Assembly: GCA_016191225.1 (NCBI GenBank)
Contig: JACPPC010000003.1
Location: 62,001 to 126,000, forward strand
Direction: 5' to 3'
Length of the DNA: 64,000 nucleotides
DNA from: Gemmatimonadota bacterium
GTDB lineage: Bacteria > Gemmatimonadota > Gemmatimonadetes > Gemmatimonadales > Gemmatimonadaceae
The translations under genes and the position numbers were made by a program. This document shows, in pieces, positions 1-22,354 of this stretch. Below the pieces are notes generated by a model. It searched no databases and was not told the origin of the DNA. It saw only the letters and a program-made list of their open reading frames with translations. Within the stretch, counting starts at the first letter, position 1. Each line of letters starts with the position of its first letter.

Positions 1-561
1 CGGGCCCTCGACCTCGACGCGGGGTACGGCGCCGTGCGCCTGTCGCTGGCGCGCCTGCTCAGCGCACAGGGCGAGGGCGCGGGGGCCGAGGAGCAGCTCC
101 TCGCCGCGATCGATGCCGTGCCCACGTGGGACGAGCCCCAGCTCGAGCTGGCGAGGCTGCGTCGCCACCTCGACCGGCCGCACGAGGCGATGGACCTGCT
201 GATCGCGGTGCTGCGGCGCGACCCGTACCACTTCGAGGCCCTGCTCACCCTTGGCGAGTCACTCCTCGACACCGGCGAGGTGCGCGACGCGGCGACCGCC
301 TTCGCCCGCATCCTGCGCTTCGACCCGTCGCACGCCGGGGCGCTGTACTACAGCGGCACGCTGCTGGCCCGCCAAAGCCGCTGGCGCGACGCGATCATCG
401 CCTGGCACCGCGTGACGGAGGTCGAGCCCGCCGGCGAGTGGGCGCGCCGCGCCCGCAAGGAGGCGCGCACCGCCGCCGAGCTGTCGCACATCTTCACCCA
501 GCCCGGCGACCCGGGCGTGACGCCGGTGGGCTCGCCCGCCCTTCCCTCCGGGGCGCGCTAG
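1..561 (+). CDS. TPR-repeat protein, 5' truncated by the window edge
   Basis: The frame is open from the first base to TAG at 559-561, so the gene begins upstream; 186 residues are visible. The sequence is almost entirely tetratricopeptide-like helix pairs, with alternating small and aromatic positions such as ALYYSGTLLARQSRWRDAI, and a short Gly/Pro-rich tail. TPR arrays are protein-binding scaffolds; no catalytic motif is seen. The stop codon shares one base with the GTG start of the DUF4388 gene, which implies translational coupling and one operon. The partner is unknown; by context it probably serves the GTPase/chemosensory system encoded downstream. Confidence 0.75.
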   Translation, partial: RALDLDAGYGAVRLSLARLLSAQGEGAGAEEQLLAAIDAVPTWDEPQLELARLRRHLDRPHEAMDLLIAVLRRDPYHFEALLTLGESLLDTGEVRDAATAFARILRFDPSHAGALYYSGTLLARQSRWRDAIIAWHRVTEVEPAGEWARRARKEARTAAELSHIFTQPGDPGVTPVGSPALPSGAR

Positions 562-1706
562 TGGCGATCGAGGGCCCCCTCCGCGAGCTCGGCATCCACG
601 ACGTCTTCCAGCTCCTCGACCTGAGCCGGAAGACGGGGACGCTGGCCGTCACGTCGGAGCTGCGCGACAACGAGGGGACGGTCTACTTCGACGCCGGCAA
701 GGTCATCTACGCCACCATCAAGTCGAACCCGCATCCCCTCGGGCTGATGCTGGTCAAGTCGGGGAGGGTGACGGAGGCCGACCTCGACCGCGCCCTCCTC
801 GCCCAGAAGTCCCGCCCCGGCGTGAAGTTCGGCGCAATCCTCGTCGAGATGGGGGTGATCACCCCGCGCGAGCTCGAGCGGCAGGTCAAGCTGCAGATCG
901 AGGAGGTCGTCTTCGAGCTGATGTCGTGGCGCGAGGGCTTCTTCTCCTTCACCGAGCGCGACATGACCGACGTCCCCGCCGGCGCGACGGTGCAGGTGAG
1001 CACCGAGTCGCTGCTCATGGAGGGGGCGCGCCGCATCGACGAGTGGAGCCGCATCGCCGACAAGGTGCCGCACCTCGCCGTCATCCCCGTCCTCGCCGAC
1101 GTCTCCGACGCCCACTCGGCGCAGCTCGAGCTCCTCCCCAACGAGTGGGAGATGCTGAGCATGATCGACGGAGGAGCCGACCTCCGCGAGATCGCCGCCG
1201 CCCTCGTCCGCAGCGAGTTCGACGTCGCCCGCATCGCCTACGGCCTCGTCAGCACCGGCATCGTGACGCTGCGCATGCCGTCGCGGGTCAGCACCCGCGC
1301 CCTCCTCCCCGTGGACGACGCCACGCCGCACCTCACGGCGGCCAGCGCGGCGCTGGCGGAGAACCAGCTCGAGGCCGCGCTGGTGGCGGCGCGGCAGGCG
1401 ATCGCCGCCGACCCCGGGTCCGTCGACGGGCGCCTCCTCGCCGGCCGGGCCCTGCTGCGGCTGGGCCACCTGGGCGAGGCCGTGGACGAGCTGCGCCGCG
1501 GCGCGCAACTGGATCCCTCGAACCCGGCGATGTCGCTGGAACTGGCGTTCGCGGCCGCCCGGGCAGGACATTTCGCGGAGGCGCTGGAGCGGTGGCAGCG
1601 GTATCTCGCCGAGATGCCCGCCTCGCCCCTCGGCCCGCGCGTGCGCGCGGCCATCGAGGCCACGCGCCGGCTCACCGCCCTGATCGAGGAACACGCGAGT
1701 GTCTGA
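561..1706 (+). CDS. DUF4388 (PATAN) domain protein with C-terminal TPR
   Basis: 381 residues from a GTG that overlaps the previous stop by one base. The frame is open far upstream, but the PATAN-like start MAIEGPLRELGIHDVFQLL fixes this codon: the second DUF4388 protein of the operon begins almost identically (MAIKGSLREASLPDVLQLL). Residues 1-100 are the DUF4388 fold. A middle alpha/beta region (about 100-260) is shared with the paralogue, including the conserved ESLLMEGARRIDEWS. The last 120 residues are TPR-like. PATAN domains are known from PatA-like signalling proteins and are often found with small GTPases and two-component systems. The role here is inferred to be a scaffold or sensor for the MglA-type GTPase. 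No kinase or GTPase motif is present. Confidence 0.8.
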   Translation: MAIEGPLRELGIHDVFQLLDLSRKTGTLAVTSELRDNEGTVYFDAGKVIYATIKSNPHPLGLMLVKSGRVTEADLDRALLAQKSRPGVKFGAILVEMGVITPRELERQVKLQIEEVVFELMSWREGFFSFTERDMTDVPAGATVQVSTESLLMEGARRIDEWSRIADKVPHLAVIPVLADVSDAHSAQLELLPNEWEMLSMIDGGADLREIAAALVRSEFDVARIAYGLVSTGIVTLRMPSRVSTRALLPVDDATPHLTAASAALAENQLEAALVAARQAIAADPGSVDGRLLAGRALLRLGHLGEAVDELRRGAQLDPSNPAMSLELAFAAARAGHFAEALERWQRYLAEMPASPLGPRVRAAIEATRRLTALIEEHASV

Positions 1707-2544
1707 CGACATCGCCCGCCTGAGTGAAGCGCTGGCCCGCGATCCCGCGAGCCTCGCCTTCATCGAGCTCGCCGAGGCGCTGCGCAAGCGCGGCGATGTC
1801 GAGGTGGCGACCAAGGTCGCGCTCCGGGGCCTCGAGCGGCACCCCCACCTCGGCGCGGCGCACGACGTCCTCGCCCGCCTCTACGCGGACGCGGGGGACC
1901 TCGAGCGCGCCTTCGACGAGTGGGACATGGTGCTGCGCTTCACCCCCGGGCACGCCGGCGCGCTCAAGGGGCTCGGCTTCGTGCGCTTCCACCAGGGGCA
2001 GCTCGCCGAGGCCGAGCGGTGGCTGGCGCAGGCGGCGGCCGCCGACCCGGCCGACGAGCGCAACCTTGGCGCCCTCGCCTACGTTCGGCAGCAGCTCGGC
2101 ACCGCCGCGGCGCCGGACGCGGCGGCGCCGCCGGCGGAGGCCCGGGCCGCCGCCTCGGGGCACCGCGCCACCGGCACGATGGGGGCCCGCGAGCTCTTTG
2201 CCGACATCCTCGGCGCCGAGAAGGGGATGGCGCTCCTGCTCGACGAGCACGGGCTGGTGATGGCCGGCGGGCACGAGGTCGACGGGCGCGACGTGGGGCA
2301 GGAGGTCGGGGCCCAGCTCGACAGCGTGGGCGAGGAGGCCGAGCGGGCGATGCGCCACCTCGGGCTGGGCGCCTGGACGTCGATCGTGTTCGAGACCGAG
2401 CAGTCCACGGTGGCGATGGCGCCCGGCCCCGAGAACTCGCTGATGCTGGTGAGCGCGAGCCGGGCGACGCCGGTGGGCTTCGTGCGCCGCATGCTCGAGC
2501 GCTCGCTGCAGCGCGCCGGCCGCTTCCTCGGGGGGGGCCGGTGA
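1699..2544 (+). CDS. TPR + roadblock/LC7 domain protein
   Basis: 281 residues from GTG 1699, overlapping the previous gene by 8 nt. The N-terminal 125 residues are TPR repeats (LARDPASLAFIELAEALRKR and similar). An Ala/Pro linker (about 130-155) leads to a roadblock/LC7-like domain from about 160, with the typical 'LLLDEHGLVMAGG' strand and a late 'ENSLMLVSAS' strand. Roadblock domains are the fold of MglB, which binds and activates MglA GTPases. The MglA-type GTPase lies 860 nt downstream, so this is a plausible partner or GTPase-activating subunit. That role is inferred from family and context. Confidence 0.75.
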   Translation: MSDDIARLSEALARDPASLAFIELAEALRKRGDVEVATKVALRGLERHPHLGAAHDVLARLYADAGDLERAFDEWDMVLRFTPGHAGALKGLGFVRFHQGQLAEAERWLAQAAAADPADERNLGALAYVRQQLGTAAAPDAAAPPAEARAAASGHRATGTMGARELFADILGAEKGMALLLDEHGLVMAGGHEVDGRDVGQEVGAQLDSVGEEAERAMRHLGLGAWTSIVFETEQSTVAMAPGPENSLMLVSASRATPVGFVRRMLERSLQRAGRFLGGGR

Positions 2545-2897
2545 GGGCGTCGCCGTTCGCCGAGTTGCTCGCGGCGCTGATCCGCCAGCGCGGCGTGACC
2601 GGCGCGCTGGTGGTCTCCGAGGCCGACGGGATCGTCGTCGACGCGAACGTGAGCATCGGGCTCAAGGCCGAGGTGCTGGCGGCGCTGTCGGCGTCGCTCT
2701 ACCGGCGGGCGCGGCTGGCGGCCGCCGCGGCGGGCTACGGCGAGGCGACCTTCCTGCAGCTCGAGGCGGCGCAGGGGCGCATCTGCGCCGTGGGGCGCAG
2801 CGACCTCGTGCTGGTGGCGGTCACCGAGCCCGGCGCCAACGTCGGCCTCGTGCGCATGGAAATGCTCAAGGGGCTGCAGGGCGGGGCGCTCGGATGA
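2541..2897 (+). CDS. Roadblock/LC7 domain protein
   Basis: 118 residues from GTG 2541 (GTGA overlap with the previous stop). It is a single roadblock/LC7 fold: 'GVTGALVVSEADGIVVDANV' then an amphipathic helix, and a C-terminal 'VLVAVTEPGANVGLVRMEM' strand-helix. The length matches a stand-alone MglB-like subunit. It is the second of three consecutive roadblock-type genes before the GTPase. Such proteins usually dimerise and act on Ras-like GTPases. Which of the three is the activator cannot be told from sequence alone. Confidence 0.75.
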   Translation: MRASPFAELLAALIRQRGVTGALVVSEADGIVVDANVSIGLKAEVLAALSASLYRRARLAAAAAGYGEATFLQLEAAQGRICAVGRSDLVLVAVTEPGANVGLVRMEMLKGLQGGALG

Positions 2898-3367
2898 CCT
2901 CGATCGCCGTCACCGAGGCGTGGGCGGAGGCGCCGATGCGCGCCTTCGTCGACGACGCACGGGTGCAGCTCGCCGTGCTCCTGCACACGAGCGGCCAGGT
3001 GCTCGCGCAGCACGGCTTCGGCAAGCGCATGGACGTGATGTCGGCGTGCGCGCTGGCGGCGGCGATCCACGCCAGCGCGAGCGAGCTCGGCAGGATGCTC
3101 GACGGCAAGCCGTTCAGCGGGCTGCACTACGCCGGCAGGCGGAAGCAGATCTTCCTCGGGGTCGCCGAGACGCGGCGGGGCCCGTTCCTGCTCCTGACCG
3201 TGTTCGACGAGAACGCGTCGCTGGGGCTGGTGCAGCTCTACTTCGGCGAGTTCCGCGCCAGGCTGTCCACCGCCGCCCCCGAGCCGGCCAAGGACACCAC
3301 GCCCCTCAACGAGCACTTCGAGGGCGAGCTCAACCGCAACCTGTCGGCGCTGTTCGGCCGGTCGTGA
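2894..3367 (+). CDS. Roadblock/LC7-like protein
   Basis: 157 residues from ATG 2894 (ATGA overlap). The core has roadblock-type features: 'VLLHTSGQVLAQHG', a long helix with 'SACALAAAIHASASELGRML', and a closing strand 'GPFLLLTVFDENASLGLVQL'. The C-terminal 35 residues are an extra charged tail. It is more divergent than the neighbouring roadblock proteins. It immediately precedes the MglA-type GTPase with a 38 nt gap, the usual place for an MglB-like partner. Confidence 0.7.
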   Translation: MTSIAVTEAWAEAPMRAFVDDARVQLAVLLHTSGQVLAQHGFGKRMDVMSACALAAAIHASASELGRMLDGKPFSGLHYAGRRKQIFLGVAETRRGPFLLLTVFDENASLGLVQLYFGEFRARLSTAAPEPAKDTTPLNEHFEGELNRNLSALFGRS

Positions 3368-3405: not shown

Positions 3406-4011
3406 GTGTCGATCGTCAACTACGCCACGCGCGAAATCACCTGCAAGATCGTCTACTACGGCGCCGGCCGCAGCGGCAAGACGACGAACCTGCAGTACAT
3501 CTACGCGCAGGTGCCGCCGGACCGGAAGGGCAACATGGTCTCGCTGGCCACCCAGACCGACCGCACCCTCTTCTTCGACTTCCTGCCCCTCGACCTCGGC
3601 ACGATCTCGGGCTTCACCACGCGCTTCCAGCTCTACACCGTCCCCGGCCAGGTGTACTACCAGGCCACCCGCAAGCTCGTGCTGCAGGGGGCCGACGGCG
3701 TGGTCTTCGTGGCCGACAGCCAGTCCCGCCAGCTCGACGAGAACATCGAGAGCATGCAGGACCTGCACGGCAACCTCGCCGAGCACGGCATCGACGCGCG
3801 CACCGTGCCGCTGGTGGTGCAGTACAACAAGCGCGACCTGCCGCAGGAGTTGCTGAGCACCATCGACGAGCTGCAGGACGTCGTGAACTTCCGCGGCGTC
3901 CCCGACTTCCCCGCCGACGCGCTGCACGGCCCCGGTGTGTTCGAGACGTTGCGCGGCATCTCGGAGATCGTGCTCAAGCGGCTCAGCGCCACGCAGTCGA
4001 CGCCGCGGTGA
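3406..4011 (+). CDS. mglA: MglA-family small Ras-like GTPase
   Basis: 201 residues from GTG 3406. P-loop GAGRSGKT is at residues 19-26. The switch II region is TVPGQVYY, the 'VPGQ' form typical of MglA rather than Ras DxxG. The base-specificity motif is NKRD. Length and motifs match MglA, a GTP-dependent polarity switch in Myxococcus and relatives. It likely cycles with one of the three upstream roadblock proteins and recruits effectors such as the neighbouring TPR, PATAN or AAA+ proteins; that part is inference. The next gene starts 7 nt after the stop. Confidence 0.9.
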
Positions 4012-4018
4012 CCCCCAG

Positions 4019-5947
4019 GTGACCGCCTCGCGCTTCCGCTTCGACACCTACGTCGTCGGCTCGGCCAACCGCCTCGCCGTGGGCGCCGCGCGCGCGGTGG
4101 CCGAGGCGCCGGGGGCGGTCTACAACCCGCTCTTCATCCACGGCCCGAGCGGCCTCGGCAAGACCCACCTCCTCGCCGCCATCGGCTCGCACGCACGGCA
4201 GCTCCAGCCGTCGCTGCAGGTCGAGTACGTCGGCTTCGACGACTTCGTGGAGCAGTTCCACGCGTCGGTGTCGGCCGGCGAGATGGAGACTTTCCGCCGC
4301 CGCTGGGGCGCGGTCGACCTGCTGCTGCTCGACGACGTGCAGTTCCTCACCGGCCGGCGCGAGCTCCAGGGCGAGCTCCTGCGGCTGTTCAACGCGCTGC
4401 AGGGTACGGGGAAGCAGGTCGTCCTGTCGAGCGACCGGCCGCCACAGGAGATCTCCGACGTCGACGAGCGGCTCGTGTCGCGTCTCGCCGGCGGGCTGAT
4501 CGTCGACATCGGCGCCCCCGACTACGAGACCCGGCTGGCGATCCTCCGTGCCGCCACCACCGAGCGCAACGTGCAGGTCGCCACCGACGTGCTCGAGACG
4601 ATCGCGCGGCTCCAGCTCCCCAACGTGCGCGAGCTGCACGGCGCGCTGAACCGGGTCGTGGCCGAGCAGTCGCTGGCCGGCCGCCGCGTGACCTCCGGGG
4701 AGGTGTGGGAGCTCGCCGGATCCAAGGGCGTCCCCCCCGAGGTCGAGGCCCCGCGGCGCGCCTCCGATGGCACCTCGCTGGGCGGCGAGTACGCGAGCTT
4801 CCTGTCCGACATCGCGAGCGCCGTGGCGGCCAGCGTCGAGCCGTGGAAGTCGCGCCTCGCCGAGGCGATCGCCTACTGGCGCGGCGAGGGGTTCCGCACC
4901 GGCGTGCTCGAGCGCGCGATGCAGCTCGGCGCGGCCCCCGACATCGACGCACTGCTGGGGACCTTCACGGCCGCGGTCGAGCACATGCGGCAGCTCGAGC
5001 GGCACGCCGTCACGGTGGACCCCCTGCTGGGCGGCAACGAGGTCTTTCGCGACCCCGAGCGCATCGACGACGCCGAGGCGCTGGTGGACCGCGCCCTCGC
5101 CGGCGACACGCCGCCCCCCGGCCCCGACCCCGCCTTCACCCGGCAGGGCTTCGAGTCGGCCGGCTCCAACCAGCTCGCCGCGCGCGCTGCCGACGCGGTG
5201 GTCGCCGAGCCGGGCGCGCGCTACAACCCGCTCGTCATCCACGGCCCGAGCGGCACCGGCAAGACGCACCTCCTGCACGCGGTCGGCAACGCCCTCGTGG
5301 TGTCGGGGGCGAGGCGGGTGGCTTGCGCCGGCGCGCAGGCATTCATCGAGGAGCTCGTGGGTGCCCTGCAGGACGGCTCGGTGGACCGGTGGCGGGCGCG
5401 CTACCGCGGCGTGGACGCGCTGCTGCTCGACGACGTGCACTTCTTCGCCGGCACCGAGCGGGCGCAGGAGGAGCTCTTCCACCTCTTCAACGAGTTGCAC
5501 GGCCAGGGGCGCCAGATCGTCTTCACGTCGAACGTGGCACCCAAGGACCTCACGGGGCTCGAGGACCGGCTGCGCTCGCGCCTCGAGGGGGGCCTCGTGG
5601 TGAGCATGCAGCCCCCCGAGCGGACGCTGCGCGAGGCGCTCTACCGGCGCTGGCTCTCCGGCTGGGGGGTCACCGCCGACGACGAGCTCCTGCGCTACCT
5701 CGGCGAGCGGCCGGCCAATACGGCGCGCGAGGTCCAGGGCACCGCGTCGCGGCTGCGCGAGGCGGCGGCGCAGGCCAACGTCACCCTCACCCTCGGCTTC
5801 GCGATGGAGACCCTCGAGCCGCAGCGGCGCGCGTCGCTCGCGGTGCCGCGCGCCTCGGGGGGGATCGACGCCTTCCTGCTGAACGAGGAGAAGATCGTCT
5901 GGGACTGGCCCGACGTGAGCGGGCGCGTGATCGAGGAGCTCCGCTAG
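4019..5947 (+). CDS. Protein with two tandem DnaA-type AAA+ ATPase modules
   Basis: 642 residues from GTG 4019, chosen because it lies 7 nt after the GTPase stop and begins just before the DnaA-like 'FDTYVVGSANRLAVGAA'. Module 1 has Walker A GPSGLGKTH (42-50) and Walker B LLLLDDVQFL (Asp105-106). Module 2 repeats the pattern: 'FESAGSNQLAARAA', Walker A GPSGTGKTH (409-417) and Walker B LLLDDVHFF (Asp471-472). 'YNPLFIHGPSG' and 'YNPLVIHGPSG' are hallmark DnaA/Hda sequences. A charged helical linker (about 260-375) joins them. There is no DnaA domain IV helix-turn-helix; the C-terminus is short and acidic. Origin binding is therefore unlikely. The place in a GTPase/chemosensory operon suggests an assembly or localisation ATPase. 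No function can be assigned from homology alone. Confidence 0.85.
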   Translation: MTASRFRFDTYVVGSANRLAVGAARAVAEAPGAVYNPLFIHGPSGLGKTHLLAAIGSHARQLQPSLQVEYVGFDDFVEQFHASVSAGEMETFRRRWGAVDLLLLDDVQFLTGRRELQGELLRLFNALQGTGKQVVLSSDRPPQEISDVDERLVSRLAGGLIVDIGAPDYETRLAILRAATTERNVQVATDVLETIARLQLPNVRELHGALNRVVAEQSLAGRRVTSGEVWELAGSKGVPPEVEAPRRASDGTSLGGEYASFLSDIASAVAASVEPWKSRLAEAIAYWRGEGFRTGVLERAMQLGAAPDIDALLGTFTAAVEHMRQLERHAVTVDPLLGGNEVFRDPERIDDAEALVDRALAGDTPPPGPDPAFTRQGFESAGSNQLAARAADAVVAEPGARYNPLVIHGPSGTGKTHLLHAVGNALVVSGARRVACAGAQAFIEELVGALQDGSVDRWRARYRGVDALLLDDVHFFAGTERAQEELFHLFNELHGQGRQIVFTSNVAPKDLTGLEDRLRSRLEGGLVVSMQPPERTLREALYRRWLSGWGVTADDELLRYLGERPANTAREVQGTASRLREAAAQANVTLTLGFAMETLEPQRRASLAVPRASGGIDAFLLNEEKIVWDWPDVSGRVIEELR

Positions 5948-7570
5948 GTGGCGATCAAGGGCTCCCTCCGCGAGGCGTCGCTCCCCGACGTGCTCCAGCT
6001 CCTCACGCTGGGCAAGAAGTCCGGCTGCCTGTCGGTCACCCACCGGTCGAACTTCGGCTACATCTACTTCGACAAGGGGCGGATCTCCTATGCGTCGATC
6101 GTCAACCGGCGCGACCGCCTCGGCGACCTGCTGGTGAAGACCGGCGCGATCTCGCAGTCGCAGCTCGACCAGGCGATCGACCAGCAGGGGCGCGAGCGCG
6201 ACAAGAAGCTCGGCGAGATCATGGTCGGGATGGGCCTCCTCGCCCGCGAGGGGCTCGTCGCCCACATCCGCACCCAGATCGAGGAGGCCGTCTACTTCCT
6301 GTTCACGTGGACGCAGGGGACCTTCTCGTTCGAGCCCGACGTCACTCCCGAGCAGCAGGACGTCCTCGTCTCGATCAACCCCGAGTCCCTCCTCCTCGAG
6401 GGGGCGCGCCGGGTGGACGAGTGGTCGCTGATCGAGAAGAAGATCCCCAGCTTCGACCTCGTCTTCGACGTCGACCGCCACAAGCTGCGCGAGGCCGCCG
6501 TCAAGCTCACCGACGAGCAGAACCAGCTCCTTCTCCTCGTCGACGGGCGTCGCGACGTCGCGACCCTGATCGAGGAGTCGGGGATGGTCGAGTTCGAGGT
6601 CGGCAAGGCGCTCTACGGCCTGATCACCGCCGGCTTCACGCAGCGCGTCGGCAAGAGCCGCCCCACCACCGACGCCGTGAGCGAGGCGCGCGTCGAGGAG
6701 CACCGCAACCTCGGCATCGCCTTCTACAAGACGGGAATGCTCGACGAGGCGGTGCGCGAGTTCCGCCGCGTGATCGACCTTCGCGAGGGGGACGTCCCGG
6801 CCCGCTTCTACACCGGGCTCGTGCACCTCCGGCAGCACCACTGGTCGGAGGCCGTGCGCGTGCTGCAGGAGGTCGCGGCCGCCCCCGGCGGGGCGCGCGT
6901 CGCCGTCTTCCACAACCTCGCCTACGCCCTCGAGCGCAGCGGCCGCGCCCACGAGGCCGGGCTCGCCCTCGACGAGGCCCTCAAGCGCGGCGGCGCCACC
7001 GACGCCATGGTGCAGACCACCGCCGGTGTCGTCGCCCTCCGCGCCGGCGACGCCCAGGGGGCCGACGCGACCCTCGCCTCGGCGCGGCCGCTGTGGGGAC
7101 GCCGCCCGCCGCCGCCCGCCTGGTTCCACTACGCCGCCCTCGCCGCCGCCCTCAGCGGCGACCTCCAGCGCGGCATCGCCCTCCTCACCGAGGGGATCGG
7201 CGTGCATGCCCACGCCGCCGTCCTGTTCAGCAACCTCGCCGCGATGCTCGAGCGCAAGGGACAGGTCGACGACGCGATCAAGGTGGCCGAGCGCGGGGTG
7301 ATGGAGGACGCCGGGCTTCCCCAGCTCCACAAGAACGTCGGCGACCTGCAGTACCGCACCGCGCAGTACGACGAGGCCCTCGAGTCCTTCCAGCGGGCCG
7401 TCAAGCTCGCCCCCGACCTCGGCGCCGACGTGTACCTCAAGCTCGGCAACATCCGCTTCCGCCGGCAGGAGACCGCCGAGGCGGTGAAGTTCTGGGAGCG
7501 CTCGCTCGAGCTCGACCCCGGCAACGCCATCGTCCGGGCCAACCTCGACGCCGTGCGGCGCGGCGCGTGA
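5948..7570 (+). CDS. DUF4388 (PATAN) protein with extended TPR array
   Basis: 540 residues from GTG 5948, directly abutting the previous stop. Residues 1-100 are DUF4388 (opening MAIKGSLREASLPDVLQLL). Residues 100-240 match the middle region of the first DUF4388 protein ('NPESLLLEGARRVDEWSLI'). From about 250 to the end there are seven or so TPR-like units, ending with the canonical 'AVKFWERSLELDPGNAIVRA'. It is a paralogue of the 561-1706 gene with a longer TPR tail. The two bracket the roadblock/GTPase/AAA+ block, which suggests that they are distinct adaptors of one system. No enzymatic motif is visible. Confidence 0.85.
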   Translation: MAIKGSLREASLPDVLQLLTLGKKSGCLSVTHRSNFGYIYFDKGRISYASIVNRRDRLGDLLVKTGAISQSQLDQAIDQQGRERDKKLGEIMVGMGLLAREGLVAHIRTQIEEAVYFLFTWTQGTFSFEPDVTPEQQDVLVSINPESLLLEGARRVDEWSLIEKKIPSFDLVFDVDRHKLREAAVKLTDEQNQLLLLVDGRRDVATLIEESGMVEFEVGKALYGLITAGFTQRVGKSRPTTDAVSEARVEEHRNLGIAFYKTGMLDEAVREFRRVIDLREGDVPARFYTGLVHLRQHHWSEAVRVLQEVAAAPGGARVAVFHNLAYALERSGRAHEAGLALDEALKRGGATDAMVQTTAGVVALRAGDAQGADATLASARPLWGRRPPPPAWFHYAALAAALSGDLQRGIALLTEGIGVHAHAAVLFSNLAAMLERKGQVDDAIKVAERGVMEDAGLPQLHKNVGDLQYRTAQYDEALESFQRAVKLAPDLGADVYLKLGNIRFRRQETAEAVKFWERSLELDPGNAIVRANLDAVRRGA

Positions 7571-8403
7571 ACACCGGCGCCACCAGCGACCCGGGCTTCG
7601 ACGCCCTCACCGCGAAGATCGCCCGCGACCGCGGCTTCGCCTGCGGCAGCTACAAGCCCACCTGCCTCAGGCGGCGAATCGCCGTGCGCATGCGTGCCCG
7701 CGGCGTACACCGGTACGCCGACTATGCCGCCCTCCTCGACCGCGACCGCGACGAGTACGAGAAGCTGATCGACACGCTCACCATCAACGTCACGCGGCTC
7801 TACCGCAATCCGGAGGCCTGGCTGGCGGTCGAGCGCCAGGTCTGGCCGGCGCTGTTCACGCGCAAGGAACGCGAGCTGCGTGCCTGGAGCGCCGGTTGCT
7901 CGAGCGGCGAGGAGCCGTACACCCTCGCCATCTCGGCGCTCCGCGCCGCCGAGGCCGCGGGGACGCCGGCCGCCGCGTCGCGCGTGCGGATCACCGCCAC
8001 CGACATCGACCTTCGCTCGCTCGAGGCGGCGCGTGCCGGCGCCTTCGCCGAGCCGGCCTTCGCCGACGTCCCCGCGGGCGTGCGGGAGCGCTGGTTCGAG
8101 CCCGGCTGGCCCGCCCGCGCCCGCGACGCCGCGCGCGCCCTCGTGCGCGTCGAGCGCCGCGACCTCCTCGAGGAGGCGCCGCCGCCGGGGCCGTGGCACC
8201 TGATCGTCTGCCGCAACGTGATCATCTACTTCGATCGGGAGTCGCAGGAGGCCCTCTTTCACCGCTTCCGCGACGCCCTCGCCCCCGGCGGCTTCCTCGT
8301 CCTCGGCAAGGTCGAGACGCTGCTCGGCGACAGCCGGGCCCTGTTCGAGCCGGTGAACAGCCGCGAGCGGATCTTCCGCCGGCCGCCGGCCGCCGCCGCA
8401 TGA
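7567..8403 (+). CDS. cheR: Chemotaxis receptor methyltransferase CheR
   Basis: 278 residues from GTG 7567 (GTGA overlap). It carries the N-terminal helical CheR domain ('YKPTCLRRRIAVRMRARG') and the SAM-binding motif WSAGCSSGEEPYTLA, followed by 'ITATDIDLRSLEAAR' and 'LIVCRNVIIYFDRE'. All are signature CheR features. It methylates glutamates of chemoreceptors using S-adenosylmethionine and is opposed by CheB. No receptor gene is in the window, so its substrate must be encoded elsewhere. Confidence 0.95.
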   Translation: MNTGATSDPGFDALTAKIARDRGFACGSYKPTCLRRRIAVRMRARGVHRYADYAALLDRDRDEYEKLIDTLTINVTRLYRNPEAWLAVERQVWPALFTRKERELRAWSAGCSSGEEPYTLAISALRAAEAAGTPAAASRVRITATDIDLRSLEAARAGAFAEPAFADVPAGVRERWFEPGWPARARDAARALVRVERRDLLEEAPPPGPWHLIVCRNVIIYFDRESQEALFHRFRDALAPGGFLVLGKVETLLGDSRALFEPVNSRERIFRRPPAAAA

Positions 8404-8924
8404 GCACGCGCGCGCTGCGGGAGCGTCCCGCGATCGAGCGGCCGGGGCGCGAGGTCCGCGTCAAGGTCGCCGACCATGCGATCGCGGGCGACGGGCAACA
8501 CCTCGTCACCCTCGGGCTCGGGTCGTGCGTGGCGATCGCCATCCATGCCCCGCGGGCACGGCTCGGCGCCCTCGCCCATGTGCTCCTTCCCGACACGAGC
8601 ATCGCGCGCGACCGGGGGAACCCCGCCCGCTTCGCCGACCGTGCGGTGCCCCTGCTCGTCGAGGCCCTCCGCGCGCGCGGCGCCACCGAGCCCCTCGTCG
8701 CCAAGCTCGTGGGCGGTGCCGGCATGTTCGCCCAGCTGCTCCGGCAGGGCGGCGTGAACATGGGGGCGCGCAACACCGAGGCGGCGCGCGCCGCCCTCCG
8801 GCTCGCCGGCGTCGCCGTCGTCGCCGAGGATACCGGCGGCGACTACGGCCGGTCGGTCTGGTTCGACACGGCCAGCGGCACCGTCACCGTGCGCTCGCTC
8901 CGCGGGGGGGACCGTGTCCTCTAG
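8400..8924 (+). CDS. cheD: Chemoreceptor glutamine deamidase CheD
   Basis: 174 residues from ATG 8400 (ATGA overlap with cheR). The catalytic dyad is present: Cys43 in LGLGSCVAI and His60 in ALAHVLLP. The 'KLVGGAGMF' and 'GARNTEA' motifs follow, as in other CheD proteins. It deamidates receptor glutamines so that they can be methylated, and in some bacteria it binds CheC. No cheC is seen here. The 3' end overlaps cheB by 11 nt, so cheR, cheD and cheB are probably translated together. Confidence 0.93.
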   Translation: MSTRALRERPAIERPGREVRVKVADHAIAGDGQHLVTLGLGSCVAIAIHAPRARLGALAHVLLPDTSIARDRGNPARFADRAVPLLVEALRARGATEPLVAKLVGGAGMFAQLLRQGGVNMGARNTEAARAALRLAGVAVVAEDTGGDYGRSVWFDTASGTVTVRSLRGGDRVL

Positions 8925-9984
8925 CCGCCGCAGCGTGCTCGTCGTCGACGACAGCGCCTTCATGCGCAAGGTGATCGCCGAGATCATCGAGGGCTCGGGG
9001 GAGTTCCGCGTCGCCGGGACCGCGCGGCACGGCATCGACGCGATCGAGAAGATCGGGGTCCTCGACCCCGACATCGTCACCCTCGACGTCGACATGCCCG
9101 AGCTCGACGGGCTGCAGACCCTCGGCTACATCATGAGCGAGATCCCGCGCCCCGTCGTGATGCTGTCGGGGGCCGAGGCGCAGGACGGCGTCGATCCCGT
9201 CATCCGGGCCCTCGAGCTCGGCGCCGTGGACTTCGTGCGCAAGCCGTCGGGGCCCATCTCCCTCGACTTCGACGTGGTGCGCGAGCGGCTGGTCGACGCG
9301 CTGCGCGCCGCCGCCGTGGTCAACCTCGGTGGCATCTCGGTCCTCGCCCGCGCCTCGCTCGTGGAGCCGACGCCGCCGCCCACCGCGATCGGTGGCGCCA
9401 CGCGCTGCGTCTGCATCGCCGCCAGCACCGGCGGCCCGCGCGCCCTCGCCGACGTCATCCCCAGGCTCCCCGCCGGGCTCGACGCCGCGGTGCTCGTGGT
9501 GCAGCACATGCCCGCCGGCTTCACCCGCTCGCTCGCCACGCGGCTCGACGGCATCAGTCGCTTGCACGTCACCGAGGCGGTCGAGGGCGAGTCGCTGGTG
9601 CACGGGCGCGTGTACATCGCCCCCGGCGGCCAGCACATGCGGCTCAGCCCGGGGGCGCACGGCCAGGCCATCGCGCTCGACGGCGGTCCACCGGTGTGGG
9701 GCGTGCGCCCCGCCGCCGACCCGCTGTTCAAGGATGTCGCCCATGCCTTTGGCGGCGACGCGGTGGCCGCCGTGCTCACCGGCATGGGGCGCGACGCCGC
9801 CGACGGCGTGCGGGCGATCCTCGACGCCGGCGGCGATGCCGTGGCGCAGGACAAGGCCACCAGTATCATCTACGGCATGCCGCAGGCGGCCGTCGCGATC
9901 GGCGGCGCGCAGCGCGTGCTGCCGGTGCGGGAGATCCCGCACGCGATCACCGAGATGGTCGGCGCGCGGAGGGCCACCCTGTGA
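8914..9984 (+). CDS. cheB: Chemotaxis response regulator methylesterase CheB
   Basis: 356 residues from GTG 8914, overlapping cheD by 11 nt. The N-terminal receiver domain has the phospho-acceptor Asp58 in TLDVDMPEL. The C-terminal methylesterase domain has the catalytic Ser171 in AASTGGPRAL, His in VQHMPAGFT and Asp in MGRDAADGV. It demethylates and deamidates receptors when phosphorylated by CheA. Length and domain order match canonical CheB. The cognate CheA is not in the window. Confidence 0.95.
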   Translation: MSSSRRSVLVVDDSAFMRKVIAEIIEGSGEFRVAGTARHGIDAIEKIGVLDPDIVTLDVDMPELDGLQTLGYIMSEIPRPVVMLSGAEAQDGVDPVIRALELGAVDFVRKPSGPISLDFDVVRERLVDALRAAAVVNLGGISVLARASLVEPTPPPTAIGGATRCVCIAASTGGPRALADVIPRLPAGLDAAVLVVQHMPAGFTRSLATRLDGISRLHVTEAVEGESLVHGRVYIAPGGQHMRLSPGAHGQAIALDGGPPVWGVRPAADPLFKDVAHAFGGDAVAAVLTGMGRDAADGVRAILDAGGDAVAQDKATSIIYGMPQAAVAIGGAQRVLPVREIPHAITEMVGARRATL

Positions 9985-10781
9985 TCGAGGACTACTGGGG
10001 CCTCCGGCGCAAGCCGTTCGCCAACACCCCCGATCCGGCCTTCTTCGTGCGGCTCCCCGACGTCGACGAGGCCTTCGCCCGCCTCCTCTACGACGTCACC
10101 GAGGTGCGGGGCGGCCTCTCGCTCGTCACCGGCGACATCGGCTGTGGCAAGACGATGCTCGCCCACGCCCTCGTCGACCGGCTCGCCGGAACCCCCTGCG
10201 AGGCCACCGTGCTGCACTCGCCGCGGCTCACCCCGGTGCAGCTGCTCCAGGCCGTGCTCCACGCCGCCGGCGGCACCCGCGCGCCGCGCGGCAAGCATCC
10301 GCTCGTGCAGGCCCTCGCCGCGCACCTCAAGCAGCAGCACGCCGCCGGTCGGCGCCCCGTGTTCGTGGTGGACGAGGCGCAGCTCGCCACGCCGACCCTT
10401 CTCGAGGAGGTCCGCCTCCTCACCAACTTCGAGGACCGCTCCGACAAGCACGTGCACGTCGTCCTCGTCGGACAGCCGGAATTGCGCGCCCGCATCGCCA
10501 CGCTGCCCCAGATCAACCAGCGCGTGGGGCTGCGCGCCCACTTGGTTCCCCTCGAGCTCGCCGACGTCGAGACGTACGTGGCCCAGCGCCTCAGGGTCGC
10601 GGGGGCCAACGGCCGCCCGATCTTCGCCGCCGAGGCCCTCGCCGCCCTCGCCGCCCGGAGCGGCGGCGTGCCGAGACTGATCAACAACATCGCCACGCAG
10701 GCCCTCTTCGTCGCCGCCGCCCGCGGCGAGCGCGTGGTCGGGGCCGGACTGGTGGACGACGTGGCGGACGACCGCGAATGA
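9981..10781 (+). CDS. ExeA/GspA-type AAA+ ATPase
   Basis: 266 residues from GTG 9981 (GTGA overlap with cheB). It opens with the ExeA-family 'YWGLRRKPFANTPDP', then Walker A GDIGCGKT, Walker B VFVVDEAQ, and the sensor-like 'VLVGQPELRARI' and 'GVPRLINNIATQAL'. The family includes GspA/ExeA of type II secretion and TniB-like ATPases. There is no peptidoglycan-binding extension, and no secretion or transposition genes are nearby. Its position between cheB and cheW is unusual and suggests a dedicated role in this sensory operon. That role is unknown. Confidence 0.85.
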   Translation: MIEDYWGLRRKPFANTPDPAFFVRLPDVDEAFARLLYDVTEVRGGLSLVTGDIGCGKTMLAHALVDRLAGTPCEATVLHSPRLTPVQLLQAVLHAAGGTRAPRGKHPLVQALAAHLKQQHAAGRRPVFVVDEAQLATPTLLEEVRLLTNFEDRSDKHVHVVLVGQPELRARIATLPQINQRVGLRAHLVPLELADVETYVAQRLRVAGANGRPIFAAEALAALAARSGGVPRLINNIATQALFVAAARGERVVGAGLVDDVADDRE

Positions 10782-11638
10782 CGAAGAAGAAGCCGAAGAT
10801 CAGCTACCGCGACCTGCTCGCGACGTCGCCGGACGCCGCGCCGTCGATTGCCCCACCGGCTGCGCCGCCGGTTGCCCCACCGGCTGCACCACCAGGTGCG
10901 CCATCGCCCGTCGACCTCGCCGTCGTCCTCAACCCCGGCCTCACCCACCAGGTCACGCCCGCCGCCGGCGTCCACGTCGTGATTCCCGAGCCCGTCGCCG
11001 CGATGGTGCGCGCCCTCACCCCGCGGCAGGCCAGGGCCGCGGTTGTTCCCCCGGTCGCGCCGGCCTCCACCACGCCGATCGTGCCCGCCCCGATGGCGGT
11101 CCCCGCACGCGTTCGCGCGACCCGCGCCACCCGCGCCCTGCGCGCCACCGTTGCCGGCCGCGTCGTCCTCGCCAGCGCCCTTCGGGAACTGCTCGCCGAA
11201 CGGGGAAGCGCCGAGCTCCTCCGCTTCCGCGTCGGCCGCGAGCGGTTCGCCCTCCGCCTCGCCGAGGTCGAGGAGGCGGTCGAGAGCCCCGAGCTGCACC
11301 CCATTCCCGAGGCCCCGCGCGAGATGCTCGGCGTCGTCGCCCTGCGCGGGCGCCTCGTGCCGGTGTACGCGCCCGCACGCGCCCTCGGCGTGCGCCTCGA
11401 CACGCCGAGCATCGCCCTCGTCCTCGCCGGCCTCGTGCGCCCGATCGGCATCGCGGTCGACGACGTCGAGGATGTCTTCACCATGGCCGCCGCCGCGCTG
11501 CGTCCCGCGCCCGGCACCGACGATCCCGACGGCGTGCTGCTGGGCGTGACCCGGCACGGCCGCCGCCTCGTGTCCGTGCTCGATGGCGCGGCCCTCGCCG
11601 CCGCCTGCACCGCCGACCTCGCGCCGGAGACCGCATGA
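10778..11638 (+). CDS. CheW-like protein with Pro/Ala-rich N-terminal extension
   Basis: 286 residues from ATG 10778 (ATGA overlap). Residues 1-130 are low complexity, with repeated 'APPAAPP'-type segments and basic stretches. Residues 145-280 form a CheW-like fold ('LRFRVGRERFALRLAEVEEA', 'MLGVVALRGRLVPVYAPARA', 'VLLGVTRHGRRLVSVLDG'). CheW couples receptors to CheA. The long disordered extension is not typical of CheW and may bind another member of the operon. It is divergent from the next gene, so the two are probably not interchangeable. Confidence 0.8.
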   Translation: MTKKKPKISYRDLLATSPDAAPSIAPPAAPPVAPPAAPPGAPSPVDLAVVLNPGLTHQVTPAAGVHVVIPEPVAAMVRALTPRQARAAVVPPVAPASTTPIVPAPMAVPARVRATRATRALRATVAGRVVLASALRELLAERGSAELLRFRVGRERFALRLAEVEEAVESPELHPIPEAPREMLGVVALRGRLVPVYAPARALGVRLDTPSIALVLAGLVRPIGIAVDDVEDVFTMAAAALRPAPGTDDPDGVLLGVTRHGRRLVSVLDGAALAAACTADLAPETA

Positions 11639-12120
11639 CCGCCCCCGCCCCCGCCACCCAGATCGTCATCTTCAAGCTCGGCGACGATCACTTCGCCGCC
11701 GACGTCTTCGCCGTCGAGCGCGTCCTCCGGCACGTGGCCCCCACCGCGATTCCCAACGTGCCCCCGTGGATGGTCGGCGTGATCGACTACCAGCAGCGCG
11801 TCGTGCCGGTGATCGACCTGCGCCGCCGCTTCGGCCTCGCCGCCGCCGACGTCCGGCCCGAGACGCGCCTCCTCGTGCTCAACGCCAACGGGGAGTGGGT
11901 CGGCGCCGTCGTCGACGCCGTCGTCGAGGTCGTCTCGGTCGACGTGGCGGCGATCACGCCGCCGCCGCCGATGTTCCGCGGCCTCGCCGGCGAGTACATC
12001 CGCGGACTCGTGCGCCGCGCCGACCGGCTCGTCATCTGCCTCGACGTCGCCCGCCTCCTCTCCACCACCGACCGCCTGACGCTCGACCAGGCCCGCACCG
12101 AGGTTGCCGCGAATGCCTGA
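11635..12120 (+). CDS. cheW: Chemotaxis coupling protein CheW
   Basis: 161 residues from ATG 11635 (ATGA overlap). It is a standard-length CheW domain: 'IFKLGDDHFAADVFAVERVL', 'PPWMVGVIDYQQRVVPVIDL', 'RLLVLNANGEWVGAVVDAV' and 'FRGLAGEYIRGLVRRADRL'. It links chemoreceptors to a CheA kinase at the membrane. It is one of two CheW-like genes in tandem. Its stop overlaps the start of the following TPR gene by 8 nt. Confidence 0.9.
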   Translation: MTAPAPATQIVIFKLGDDHFAADVFAVERVLRHVAPTAIPNVPPWMVGVIDYQQRVVPVIDLRRRFGLAAADVRPETRLLVLNANGEWVGAVVDAVVEVVSVDVAAITPPPPMFRGLAGEYIRGLVRRADRLVICLDVARLLSTTDRLTLDQARTEVAANA

Positions 12121-12976
12121 CCACGATCTCGCGACCTACAAGGCGCAGTTCGGCGCCATCGACGCGCGCCTCGACGCCGCCCAGAATCCCGACGACGTCG
12201 CCGCCCTCAAGGGCGACATCATCGGCCTCTTTCGCAGCGTCGAGCAGCAGGTCGCCGACCTCACCGCCCTCAAGGACGAGATCAAGAAGCTCGTCGACAA
12301 GTGGAAGGCCCTCTCCGCCAATCCATCCCTCGCCCCGCAGTTCACGGGCGAGAAGCCCGTCGTCCACGCCGACCACATCGGTGCCTCCACCTTCATCGAG
12401 AAGGGATGGAGCCGCCTCTCGCTCGGCGACCACGCCGGTGCCGAGGAGGCCCTCGCCAGGGCCAACCAGCTCTCCCCCGGCGACCCGCAGACCGAGGCCC
12501 TCCTCGGCTGGGCCCAGATGCTCCAGGAGAAGTACGACGAGGCGCTCATGAACTTCCAGAAGGTCCTCGTGCGGGAACCCGCCAACGCCCTCGCCCGTAT
12601 CAACGTCGGCTACATCTGCCTCAAGAAGCGCATCTTCGGCGAGGCGATCGAGCACCTCTCGCGCGCGATCCGGCTCGACAACGACCGCAAGGCCACCCTC
12701 TACGCGCACTTCTACCTTGGCCTCGTCTACCTCGAGCGCGAGATGTTCGAGGACGCCGAGAACTTCTTCCGCAAGACCCTCGCCCTCGGTCCCAACCTGA
12801 TCGAGGCCTACTACGAGCTGGGCCGTGCCCAGTGGTTCAACGACGAGAGGGACGCCGCCACGCAGACGTGGCGTGACGGTTTCGCCGCCAACAAGTTCAA
12901 TCCATGGGGCAAGCGCTGCGCGCAGGTGCTGCAGTTGATCGAGTCGGGGGGGCAGCCGCCGGGCATCGGCGAGTAG
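12113..12976 (+). CDS. Helical/TPR protein at the end of the sensory operon
   Basis: 287 residues from ATG 12113; a TTG 9 nt upstream in frame is a weaker choice. Residues 1-65 are a charged helical segment, possibly coiled coil ('VADLTALKDEIKKLVDKWKA'). Residues 90-280 are TPR units ('GWSRLSLGDHAGAEEALARA', 'GLVYLEREMFEDAENFFRKT'). There is no signal peptide, so it is probably cytoplasmic. It ends a run of genes with at most 38 nt between them and is likely the last member of the operon. Its binding partner is unknown. Confidence 0.8.
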   Translation: MPDHDLATYKAQFGAIDARLDAAQNPDDVAALKGDIIGLFRSVEQQVADLTALKDEIKKLVDKWKALSANPSLAPQFTGEKPVVHADHIGASTFIEKGWSRLSLGDHAGAEEALARANQLSPGDPQTEALLGWAQMLQEKYDEALMNFQKVLVREPANALARINVGYICLKKRIFGEAIEHLSRAIRLDNDRKATLYAHFYLGLVYLEREMFEDAENFFRKTLALGPNLIEAYYELGRAQWFNDERDAATQTWRDGFAANKFNPWGKRCAQVLQLIESGGQPPGIGE

Positions 12977-14455: not shown

Positions 14456-16156
14456 GTGAAGGCACTCTTGTCGGCGGAACGGACGTCACGCGCGGCCTGC
14501 GCGCTCGCGGTGCTGGGCGTGGCCGTGCTTCCTTTGGTGGCCCGGGCGCAGCGTCGCGCGCCACAGCCCCCGCGGTTCATGATCACGCCCTTTCGCGCCC
14601 CGGAGAAGGCGCTTGGGTGCCTGGCAGCCGACGCCGTGCGCGAGCGGCTCGCGGACGACAATCCGCAGCGGATCCTGTTCATCATCCCCAAGGACGACAT
14701 CAACAGGACGCTCGAGGCATCGGGCTTTCCGCCCTGCGACCCCCTGCCGGCCACCGAGGCCAAGTCGCTCGCGAGCGTCGTGCGCGCCGACGAGTACCTC
14801 GATGGCGTGGTGACCAAGACGCCGACCGGCTTCAAGCTGGAGGCCCGGCTCTTCCTCGGCCGCGACAATTCGTACTCGCAGCCGATGCCGGCCGTCGAGG
14901 GCGCCCGCCTCGGCGACGTCGCCGCCAGGCTCTCGCGGCAGCTCGATGACGTGCGCAAGCAGATCGAGGACGAGAAGAGCTGCTACACGAACACCCGTCT
15001 CCGCAACGAGAAGGAGGCGATCAAGAACGCCAGGGACGCCATCCGCCAGTATCCCAGGGCGACCCTGGCCCGCGTCTGCCTGCTGCAAGCCATGGACCAG
15101 TCCAAGGCGAACAAGGACTCCATGTTCGCCGTCGCGCAGGAGATCCTCATCCTCGACTCGATCAGCCGCCCCGCGCTGACGCTGACGTCGTCGTACTACA
15201 AGGAGCGGGGCGACTCGACCCGCTACGTCGAGACCCTCACCAGGCTCTTCGCCAACGACCCCACCAACCCGCGCCTCGCCGACCGCGTCGTCACCGACCT
15301 GGTGCTCTACAAGCGCATGCCGACGGCGATCCCGATCATCAAGCGCGCCCTCGCCGAGAACCCCGGCGAGACGCAGCTGCTGGCCACCGCGTTCAAGCTC
15401 TACTACGCCGCCAGCGAGTACAAGGAGATGATCGGCGTGGGCGAGGAAATCGTCCGCATCGACACCGCCTTCGCCGACAGCAGCTACTTCTTCCGCATGG
15501 CGTTCGCCTACGCGGCCGACAGCCAGCCCGCCAGGCAGGCGGAGATGTTCGCCCGGGGCGCGCAGAAGTTCCCCGCCAGCACCAGCTGGCTCCTCCTCCT
15601 CGCGCAGGTGCAGCGCGCCCAGGGGCAGAACCAGCAGGCCATGGAGACCCTCAAGAAGGCCCTCGTCGCCGACCCGAAGACGAAGGGCGTCTACCTCCAG
15701 CTCGCCCGGTCCTACCAGGAGCAGAAGCAGCCCGACTCGGCGCTCATGATGGTCCGCCACGGCATCGAGGCGAAGGACTCGGTGCCGCTGCTCTCGCAGT
15801 ACGCGCTCAGCATCGCCAACGCCAGGTACCGCGAGGGGAACGCGAGCAAGAACCGCGACGACTGGTCGGCCTCGATCAAGATCGCGCAGTACGCCGACAG
15901 CGTGACCCCCGACCCTCGTGCGAAGCTGCTGATCGGCGCCAGCGCCCTTTCGATCGCCATCTCGGCGTTGCAGGAGGCGAGCACCGCCAGGAGCTGCGAC
16001 CTCGCCAGGCTCAGCGTCGACAACTTCACTCTCGTGAACGTCGTGGTGCCGGGCGCCGGCGCGGCCAACCGCGAGCAGGCCGGGCAGCTGATGCAGAACG
16101 CGATGCAGTATGGTCCGATGGCCGACAACCTGGTCAAGCAATTGAAGTGCAAGTAA
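14456..16156 (+). CDS. Exported TPR-repeat protein
   Basis: 566 residues from GTG 14456, preferred over ATG 14435 because GGAGGA sits 7 nt upstream of the GTG. The N-terminus is a signal peptide (basic start, then 'CALAVLGVAVLPLVARAQ'), so the protein is periplasmic or surface exposed. Residues 40-170 resemble a small alpha/beta domain ('ERLADDNPQRILFIIPKDDI'). The rest is a long TPR array ('WLLLLAQVQRAQGQNQQAM', 'GVYLQLARSYQEQKQPDSAL'). It overlaps rsmH by 10 nt, so it is physically coupled to the division cluster. Its function is unknown; an envelope scaffold is possible. Confidence 0.75.
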   Translation: MKALLSAERTSRAACALAVLGVAVLPLVARAQRRAPQPPRFMITPFRAPEKALGCLAADAVRERLADDNPQRILFIIPKDDINRTLEASGFPPCDPLPATEAKSLASVVRADEYLDGVVTKTPTGFKLEARLFLGRDNSYSQPMPAVEGARLGDVAARLSRQLDDVRKQIEDEKSCYTNTRLRNEKEAIKNARDAIRQYPRATLARVCLLQAMDQSKANKDSMFAVAQEILILDSISRPALTLTSSYYKERGDSTRYVETLTRLFANDPTNPRLADRVVTDLVLYKRMPTAIPIIKRALAENPGETQLLATAFKLYYAASEYKEMIGVGEEIVRIDTAFADSSYFFRMAFAYAADSQPARQAEMFARGAQKFPASTSWLLLLAQVQRAQGQNQQAMETLKKALVADPKTKGVYLQLARSYQEQKQPDSALMMVRHGIEAKDSVPLLSQYALSIANARYREGNASKNRDDWSASIKIAQYADSVTPDPRAKLLIGASALSIAISALQEASTARSCDLARLSVDNFTLVNVVVPGAGAANREQAGQLMQNAMQYGPMADNLVKQLKCK

Positions 16157-17091
16157 CGGTCGGGGCCTTCGATGCCCCGTATCATGCTCCCGTGCTCGTG
16201 GCCGAGGTGCTCCAGCTCCTCGGCCACGTGCGTTCCGTACTCGACGGCACCCTCGGCGGCGGTGGCCACAGCGCCGCGCTGATTGTCGCCGGCGCCCGCG
16301 TCACCGCCCTCGACCGCGACCCCGAGGCCATCGCCGCCGCCCGCGCCAGGCTCGCCGACGCCGAGCGCGCGGGACAGTTCGAGGCGGTCTGCGCCAACTT
16401 CGCCGATGTCGATGCCGTCCCCGCCCTCGCCGGCCGCACTTTCGACGGCATCCTCCTCGACCTCGGCGTCTCGTCGCACCAGCTCGACGACACCCGCCGC
16501 GGCTTCACCTTCCGGGAGGGCTCGCCCCTCGACATGCGGATGGGCGCCGATGCGACCGTCACCGCCGCCGAGTGGCTCAACGGGAACGACGAGCCCGCCC
16601 TCGCCCAGGCCTTTCGCGAGTACGCCGACGAGCACAAGGCGATGCGCCTCGCCCGCGTGATCGGCAAGCGCCGGGCGAACCACCCCTTCGCCACCTCCGA
16701 CGACCTCGTCGGGGCGATCCGCGAGGCACTCGGGGCACGCTCGGGGCCCAGCGACTTCGCCCGGCTCTTCCAGGCCGTGCGCATCGCCGTCAACGACGAG
16801 ATCGCCGCCCTCGGCAAGGCCCTCCCGGTCCTCCGTGACCGCCTCGCGCCCGGGGGCGTCATGGCGGTGATCGCCTACCACTCGGGAGAAGACCGGCTCG
16901 TGAAGCACGCCTTTCGCGCCTGGAGCGAGGACTGCACCTGCCCGCCCCGGCTCCCCCGCTGCGCCTGCGGCGGCAACCGCGCGCTGGGTGCCGTCGTCAC
17001 GCGGCGCGCGGTGACCGCCGGCGCGGCCGAGGCCGGCCGCAACGCCCGCGCGCGGAGCGCGCGCCTCAGGGGATGGCGCCGAAAGGGGTAG
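16147..17091 (+). CDS. rsmH: 16S rRNA (cytosine-1402-N4)-methyltransferase RsmH
   Basis: 314 residues from GTG 16147. It opens with the family's 'YHAPVLVAEV' and SAM motif 'VLDGTLGGGGHSAA', then 'GILLDLGVSSHQLD' and 'RGFTFREGSPLDMRMG', and ends with 'VKHAFRAWSEDCTCPPRLP'. It methylates N4 of C1402 in 16S rRNA. It is the first gene of the dcw cluster here; mraZ, its usual upstream partner, is missing. It overlaps ftsL by 19 nt. Confidence 0.95.
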   Translation: MQVTVGAFDAPYHAPVLVAEVLQLLGHVRSVLDGTLGGGGHSAALIVAGARVTALDRDPEAIAAARARLADAERAGQFEAVCANFADVDAVPALAGRTFDGILLDLGVSSHQLDDTRRGFTFREGSPLDMRMGADATVTAAEWLNGNDEPALAQAFREYADEHKAMRLARVIGKRRANHPFATSDDLVGAIREALGARSGPSDFARLFQAVRIAVNDEIAALGKALPVLRDRLAPGGVMAVIAYHSGEDRLVKHAFRAWSEDCTCPPRLPRCACGGNRALGAVVTRRAVTAGAAEAGRNARARSARLRGWRRKG

Positions 17092-17378: not shown

Positions 17379-17394
17379 CCACCGTGTCCTCCGC

Positions 17395-19380: not shown

Positions 19381-19387
19381 CGAGCTC

Positions 19388-20863: not shown

Positions 20864-20886
20864 CCGCACGCCGGCGAGATTCCAGC

Positions 20887-22296: not shown

Positions 22297-22354
22297 GTCG
22301 CGGGGCACGCCTCGCCTTGCCCCGTGTTCAACGCCGCCCGCCCACAGCCTCCCC

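Follow-up and report, generated by a model that had tools for sequence, protein, structure and literature searches.

The locus and its gene order

The window, by which we mean the whole stretch of 64,000 nucleotides that was analysed, comes from a genome of Gemmatimonadota, a phylum of soil bacteria, assembled to 3.04 Mb in 23 contigs at 93% completeness. Near the beginning of the window lies a cluster of signalling genes, in which an open reading frame with a GTG start codon and a TAG stop codon encodes a protein that we refer to as tDnaA. The features of the cluster, and the parts of tDnaA, are given below.

34..561, + strand: TPR protein; the frame is probably the C-terminal portion of a larger TPR gene whose start lies upstream of the window
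501..1706, + strand: DUF4388a, a DUF4388 and TPR protein (profile match); true start probably near 567
1699..2544, + strand: TPR and roadblock protein (Pfam)
2541..2897, + strand: Roadblock/LC7 protein 1 (Pfam)
2894..3367, + strand: Roadblock/MglB-like protein 2 (GTPaseActivMglBThm, 21.7 bits, below cut-off)
3406..4011, + strand: MglA-type small GTPase (weak Pfam Arf/Gtr1_RagA matches, TIGR00231 small_GTP; orthologues)
4019..5947, + strand: tDnaA, tandem DnaA-like AAA+ protein of 642 aa (open reading frame; two Bac_DnaA matches; orthologues)
4028..4708, + strand: M1, AAA+ module 1 of tDnaA, residues 4-230, DnaA domain IIIa+IIIb (Bac_DnaA match, residue audit)
4787..5131, + strand: middle helical domain of tDnaA, residues 257-371, no Pfam family (profile, alignment, AlphaFold)
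5135..5818, + strand: M2, AAA+ module 2 of tDnaA, residues 373-600, DnaA-like (residue audit)
5870..5944, + strand: C-terminal tail motif of tDnaA, residues 618-642, containing EEKIVWDWPDVSGRVIEELR (alignment, lowest dN/dS of tDnaA)
5948..7570, + strand: DUF4388b, with DUF4388/PATAN, an MshE-related c-di-GMP motif and TPR; the most constant neighbour
7567..8403, + strand: CheR (Pfam, TIGR/NF model matches)
8415..8924, + strand: CheD (named by sequence and synteny)
8914..9984, + strand: CheB (named by sequence and synteny)
9984..10781, + strand: AAA_22 ATPase, ExeA-like (85 bits)
about 10790-11638: CheW-like gene preceding CheW
11635..12120, + strand: CheW (sequence and synteny)
12104..12976, + strand: TPR protein, conserved end of the cluster

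The original prediction placed tDnaA directly behind an MglA gene, and the coordinates agree with it, as mglA stops at 4011 and the GTG codon follows after 7 bases; on the other side, the gene of DUF4388b starts directly after the TAG codon. DUF4388 is a domain that we take to be the same as PATAN. Both DUF4388 proteins match NF053729, the model of the MshE-related c-di-GMP motif, above its cut-off of 38 bits (45.5 bits for DUF4388b and 43.9 bits for DUF4388a), which suggests a possible c-di-GMP input to both. The ExeA-like AAA_22 protein, encoded between the cheB and cheW genes, is a second ATPase in the operon. Upstream of the cluster are genes for CheW, CheY, CheA, and CheC and, before those, ileS, lspA, and rluD, all named by sequence and position. 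Downstream, a peptidase-like gene is followed by the division cluster mraW-ftsI-mur-ftsA, and the signalling cluster thereby runs into these dcw genes at 16147-30776. Many other members of the class also have mraW next, in so far as the retrieved stretch extends to it, and the polarity cluster seems to be fixed beside the division genes. The class-wide order is ileS-lspA-rluD-(che-TPR-DUF4388a-roadblocks-mglA-tDnaA-DUF4388b-che)-dcw, within which the order around tDnaA is near-universal: TPR, DUF4388a-TPR, three roadblock genes, mglA, tDnaA, DUF4388b, CheR, CheD, CheB, CheW, and TPR.

Architecture and functional residues of tDnaA

The claim that one polypeptide carries two DnaA-type modules, with Walker A at residues 42-50 and 409-417 and Walker B at Asp105-106 and Asp471-472, was borne out by the profile searches, in which Pfam Bac_DnaA matched tDnaA twice (345.8 bits, E 5e-104) and TIGR00362 DnaA reached 487 bits, split over two stretches of the protein. 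Walker A reads GPSGLGKTH in M1 and GPSGTGKTH in M2, and Walker B reads LLLLDD and ALLLDD, respectively. Both modules have DnaA as their relatives among solved structures, the best PDB and Foldseek matches of tDnaA are DnaA, and the closest solved structures are B. subtilis DnaA 8bv3/8btg, with 45% identity in the structural alignment. In the comparison with the DnaA, Hda, and DnaC families that had been proposed as a check, DnaA was strongest; the curated models of Hda (TIGR03420, 167.1 bits, under its cut-off of 194.8), IstB (107.8 against 200), and DnaI (51.4 against 228) stayed below their cut-offs, and the IstB_IS21 and DnaC-like profiles matched tDnaA more weakly than DnaA did. The classic-clade double AAA+ proteins (p97/Rix7) were rejected as relatives, since their full-length Foldseek matches showed 12–17% identity with an rmsd >17 and both modules of tDnaA are DnaA-type.

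The N-terminus of tDnaA is the first box of domain III, and both domain I, which binds DnaB and DiaA, and domain II are absent. Domain IV is missing as well, as originally predicted: past residue 600, no DnaA-box-binding HTH was found in the sequence or in the AlphaFold model, where residues 602-642 have a pLDDT <50 and form a single terminal helix (633-641). Based on a thin alignment, the model has moderate confidence in the modules (block means ~67–88) and low confidence in the linkers and the tail, with a pTM of 0.37, so that it does not fix the relative arrangement of the parts. A pattern search of the 642 residues for a sliding-clamp motif of the QxxL(F/L) or QLxLP type found none. A separate canonical DnaA, with the domain IV signature GGRDHSTVIHS, is encoded in the same genome. 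We file tDnaA as a variant in the DnaA/Hda clade of AAA+ proteins that is neither a DnaA nor an Hda.

The tandem holds a third domain between M1 and M2, which is helical and about 115 residues long. It matched no family in Pfam and no relative among PDB sequences (best E 0.089), and a fold search with a model of pLDDT 67 gave no match (best E 4.5). The domain is well conserved, with a mean column identity of 54% and invariant W, G, P, and A residues across 22 diverse sequences, and its first helix, EFxxFLxDIxxxVAxxVE, is retained even in the mini-proteins described below. The consensus of the C-terminal tail is roughly EKxVWxWPDxxxRxIEELR.

The functional residues were audited in an alignment of 51 M1, 37 M2, and 44 canonical DnaA modules, with positions in Aquifex aeolicus numbering, which, together with the roles of the residues, we take to follow the DnaA structures. 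The ATPase set of M1 is largely complete, with the Walker A Lys and the Walker B Asp in 51/51, the arginine finger in 46/51, and the sensor-2 Arg in 43/51. M2 has the Walker A Lys in 33/37 and the arginine finger in 36/37, while sensor 2 is present in just 23/37; sensor 2 is thus often lost, and several lineages also lack the lid. At the position of V156 (V211 in E. coli), all 44 canonical DnaA modules have I, V, or L, whereas M1 has His in 28/51 and otherwise mostly polar or small residues. The K188 position is Lys in 41/44 DnaA modules versus 4/51 M1 modules, and the R190 position is Glu in 36/51 M1 modules; V156 and K188 are the telling positions because R190 is variable among canonical DnaA too. 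The same three positions of M2 are I or V in 33/37, Lys in 26/37, and Arg in 33/37. As read from this alignment, the ssDNA-contact residues of the initiator-specific motif are lost in M1 and retained in M2. E. coli DnaA with the V211A substitution does not bind the unwound strand (PMC12122000).

In the tree, M1 forms one clade and M2 forms one clade, both apart from all canonical DnaA. The sister grouping of M1 and M2 has a support of 73/64, and the alternative placement of M2 with Gemmatimonadota DnaA has a p-AU of 0.09, so that the modules may have come either from an internal duplication or from two captures of dnaA.

Distribution, partners, and loss of modules

Full-length or nearly full-length orthologues of tDnaA were found in most of 40 relatives, with identities of 76–78% within the genus and about 43–59% across the order, which, together with the low dN/dS given below, indicates that the gene is not a chance reading frame. 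A profile of the middle domain found tDnaA in 176 of 298 genomes drawn evenly from Gemmatimonadota, nearly always in a single copy (in one genome a second match was found, on another contig), and among the matches listed all lie in the class of the window. None was found in 19 genomes of other phyla, and the one match out of 192 in the phylum of genome G313, which is partial with an E of 0.0027, was taken as chance. A species-wide pattern scan, which reaches close relatives only, found full-length tDnaA only in Gemmatimonadota.

An MglA-family gene is present in all 176 genomes with tDnaA versus 54 of the 122 others, and none of the 68 genomes without the MglA family has tDnaA; DUF4388b is present in 172/176 versus 26/122. 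The lineages are not independent and kinship robs the P-values of such co-occurrence of their meaning as probabilities, while the counts themselves stand. The distance between tDnaA and mglA is at most 2.5 kb in 64 of the 68 coordinate pairs compared, and the other four pairs are on different contigs. Most genomes of the order, including that of the window, have two MglA-family genes, one alone within the cluster. The association of tDnaA with mglA, DUF4388, and che genes, for which the original prediction had suggested a genome survey, is thus conserved over a whole bacterial class at one orthologous locus. It had also been held open that the homologues might sit mainly next to replication genes; in the loci read they adjoin mglA and were never seen beside dnaA or other replication genes. 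MglA as the partner was upheld as far as conservation goes, but the constant neighbour is DUF4388b: three genomes of family f5 have rluD, tDnaA, and DUF4388b without mglA or che genes between them, and in G005 mglA is absent from the locus and the tDnaA-DUF4388b pair is retained, making DUF4388b the most constant partner.

With its fixed flanks, the locus allows gains and losses to be followed in one place. Families f4 and f5 have M1, the middle domain, a lidless M2, and the tail, whereas families f6 and f9 have one AAA+ module, of the M1 type, with the middle domain and the tail. G017 and G253 have the middle domain and the tail only. Genera g5 and g7 have, between mglA and DUF4388b, a mini-protein of about 75 residues that consists of the first middle-domain helix GEFADFMADISQEIAQRVES and the tail VEWPNIADRMIEEMR, of the type EWP...IEE; its dN/dS of about 0.24 indicates that it is under selection. 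In the DUF4388b tree, G017/G253 and g5/g7 fall inside tandem-bearing groups, which indicates that the modules were lost there; the one-module state of f6 and f9 may be derived too, with less support. Proteins of the mini-protein's size are easily overlooked by annotation; the coordinates are 8424-8645 in L167, 8044-8328 in L169, 8645-8974 in L170, and 7697-8500 (3' part) in L168. A lidless-M2 version occurs in L088 (G024) and a further reduced one in L098 (G018). DUF4388b sits on long branches where the AAA+ modules were lost (L167-L170, L098, L099, and L145), as would be expected if DUF4388b touches the modules.

Selection differs between the parts of tDnaA, with dN/dS values, rough because they come from short segments of one genome pair (the window and the congeneric L036), of 0.07 for the tail, about 0.18 for both M1 and the middle domain, 0.31 for M2, and 0.72 for the linker. 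Since the tDnaA-DUF4388b pair survives the loss of mglA and che genes, and a remnant survives the loss of the modules, the putative docking helices would be the core of the protein and the AAA+ part a removable regulator. The idea of a double motor was too strong: several lineages have a degenerate or lidless M2, and the number of modules falls to one in two families and to zero in others. Versions with two modules, one, or none exist naturally at this one locus and provide ready-made constructs for asking what the engine adds to signalling, and an experimental test is practical because some Gemmatimonadota are in culture.

Possible functions and comparison with known systems

Domain III of DnaA stacks head to tail on ATP. 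M1 has what such stacking needs without the hold on ssDNA, which makes an ATP-dependent clustering switch the economical model. Our preferred reading, to which we give a probability of about 45%, is that tDnaA is an ATP-dependent assembly switch derived from DnaA domain III that acts outside replication and regulates DUF4388b between MglA/Che and type IV pili (T4P). From its sequence we infer that tDnaA oligomerises: M1 would bind and hydrolyse ATP and use its arginine finger to stack head to tail on further AAA+ modules, not on ssDNA, and M2 would join the stack as a second and more relaxed partner. The first middle-domain helix and the C-terminal tail would be docking helices for DUF4388b, the presumed binding partner, and, where present, MglA, although the target of the tail is a guess. 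ATP-driven clustering would multiply and switch these docking helices and so gate the passage of MglA/roadblock/Che signals to the T4P machinery. This purely protein-binding role leaves the DnaA-like ssDNA contacts of M2 unexplained, which counts against it.

As for the output, a check of 38 genomes found the PilT family in 36, among them all those with tDnaA or the mini-protein, and FliG in 9, so T4P are a likelier output than flagella, which are not needed; the flagellar reading was set aside. Since almost every genome of the phylum has T4P genes, the PilT correlation carries little weight. The output could also be division or the cell cycle, as the operon borders the dcw cluster. Elsewhere, PATAN response regulators have been connected with PilB1, the T4P motor of cyanobacteria (PMC7690835), and MglA and SgmX, a TPR protein, recruit PilB in Myxococcus (PMC11580455). 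A more specific reading, which we hold only tentatively, is that tDnaA forms a DNA-free, DnaA-type, nucleotide-dependent filament as the switchable scaffold of a polarity and twitching system, with stacking clustering the helices that recruit the PATAN-TPR effector and MglA. If this is true, some lineages swapped the scaffold for a bare docking peptide.

The intact ATPase motifs of M1, the weaker matches to the IstB_IS21 and DnaC-like profiles, and the T4P ATPases in all relevant genomes checked would also suit a DnaC- or IstB-like AAA+ protein that loads or remodels an oligomeric client, such as PilB/PilT-type ATPases, the MglA-GTP complex, or the Che array. We consider this unlikely, given that M2 is often lidless, that several lineages without either module retain the partner genes, and that the nearest fold is DnaA, an assembler and not a threading motor. 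Less probable again is an Hda-like or dominant replication regulator that stacks on ATP-DnaA and couples the start of replication to polarity, motility, or division. In its favour, each module is a DnaA domain III that retains the arginine finger, a canonical DnaA is present in the same genome, the locus adjoins the dcw cluster, and Hda offers a precedent, with a TIGR03420 match of 167 bits; but this score is under the Hda cut-off (167.1 against 194.8), the clamp-binding motif was not found, and domain III, with which the protein begins, is not preceded by an Hda-type N-terminal peptide. The gene is, moreover, tied to MglA and DUF4388b, none of the loci read has it beside dnaA or another replication gene, and where the short helices are kept it can do without the modules.

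The ssDNA-contact residues of M2, retained in most genomes, are what speaks for binding of nucleic acid through M2, which would anchor the polarity/chemosensory cluster to the nucleoid or to an RNA. We regard this as improbable, ranking it below the replication regulator, because tDnaA has no duplex-recognition domain IV, the M1 contacts are lost, and M2 is absent from two families and lidless in others. A passenger in decay, left over from a dnaA duplication, would account for the repeated loss or degeneration of the modules, but this view of the gene is hardly credible given the dN/dS of 0.07–0.31 for the folded parts and the tail versus 0.72 for the linker, the catalytic residues kept across the class, and the single locus in 176 genomes.

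DnaA usually counts as a replication protein, and those of its offshoots that are well known have replication roles; we know of no signalling or cytoskeletal use of the initiator fold. Here, a doubled DnaA engine without its DNA-recognition parts is kept class-wide in a polarity/chemosensory operon, which suggests that a replication engine has been re-used by evolution to help control surface movement. A literature search on DnaA with MglA, DUF4388, twitching, or Gemmatimonad, with most subscription papers outside its range, found no description of tDnaA. The fold is known, and as far as could be searched, no description exists of the architecture, the genomic context, the middle domain, or the loss of DNA contacts.

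tDnaA shares with DnaA the AAA+ core, the initiator insertion, the arginine finger, sensor 2, and the lid. It differs from DnaA in having no domains I, II, and IV, in its two modules with a new middle domain, in the lost ssDNA contacts of M1, and in being fixed in a motility operon of genomes with a separate canonical dnaA. Like Hda/HdaA, the regulatory inactivator of DnaA, tDnaA is DnaA domain III without domain IV; unlike Hda/HdaA, it falls below the model cut-off, shows no clamp motif, has two modules, and lies in an unrelated context. With its MglA, roadblock, and PATAN-TPR proteins, the operon resembles the MglA/PATAN polarity modules. PATAN-domain genes had been seen close to some Group 1 and 5 mglA genes, and likewise MglB homologues (Wuichet and Sogaard-Andersen 2014, PMC4316618); that paper mentions no DnaA-like protein, and the word DnaA does not occur in it. 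Nor does it occur in the account of T4P control in Myxococcus (PMC11580455), which has no DnaA-like component, and the roles in Gemmatimonadota are ones that we infer; what the operon has in common with the MglA/SgmX/FrzS/SopA system described there is MglA, a TPR effector, accessory proteins, and a chemosensory link, which in Myxococcus act on PilB at the pole.
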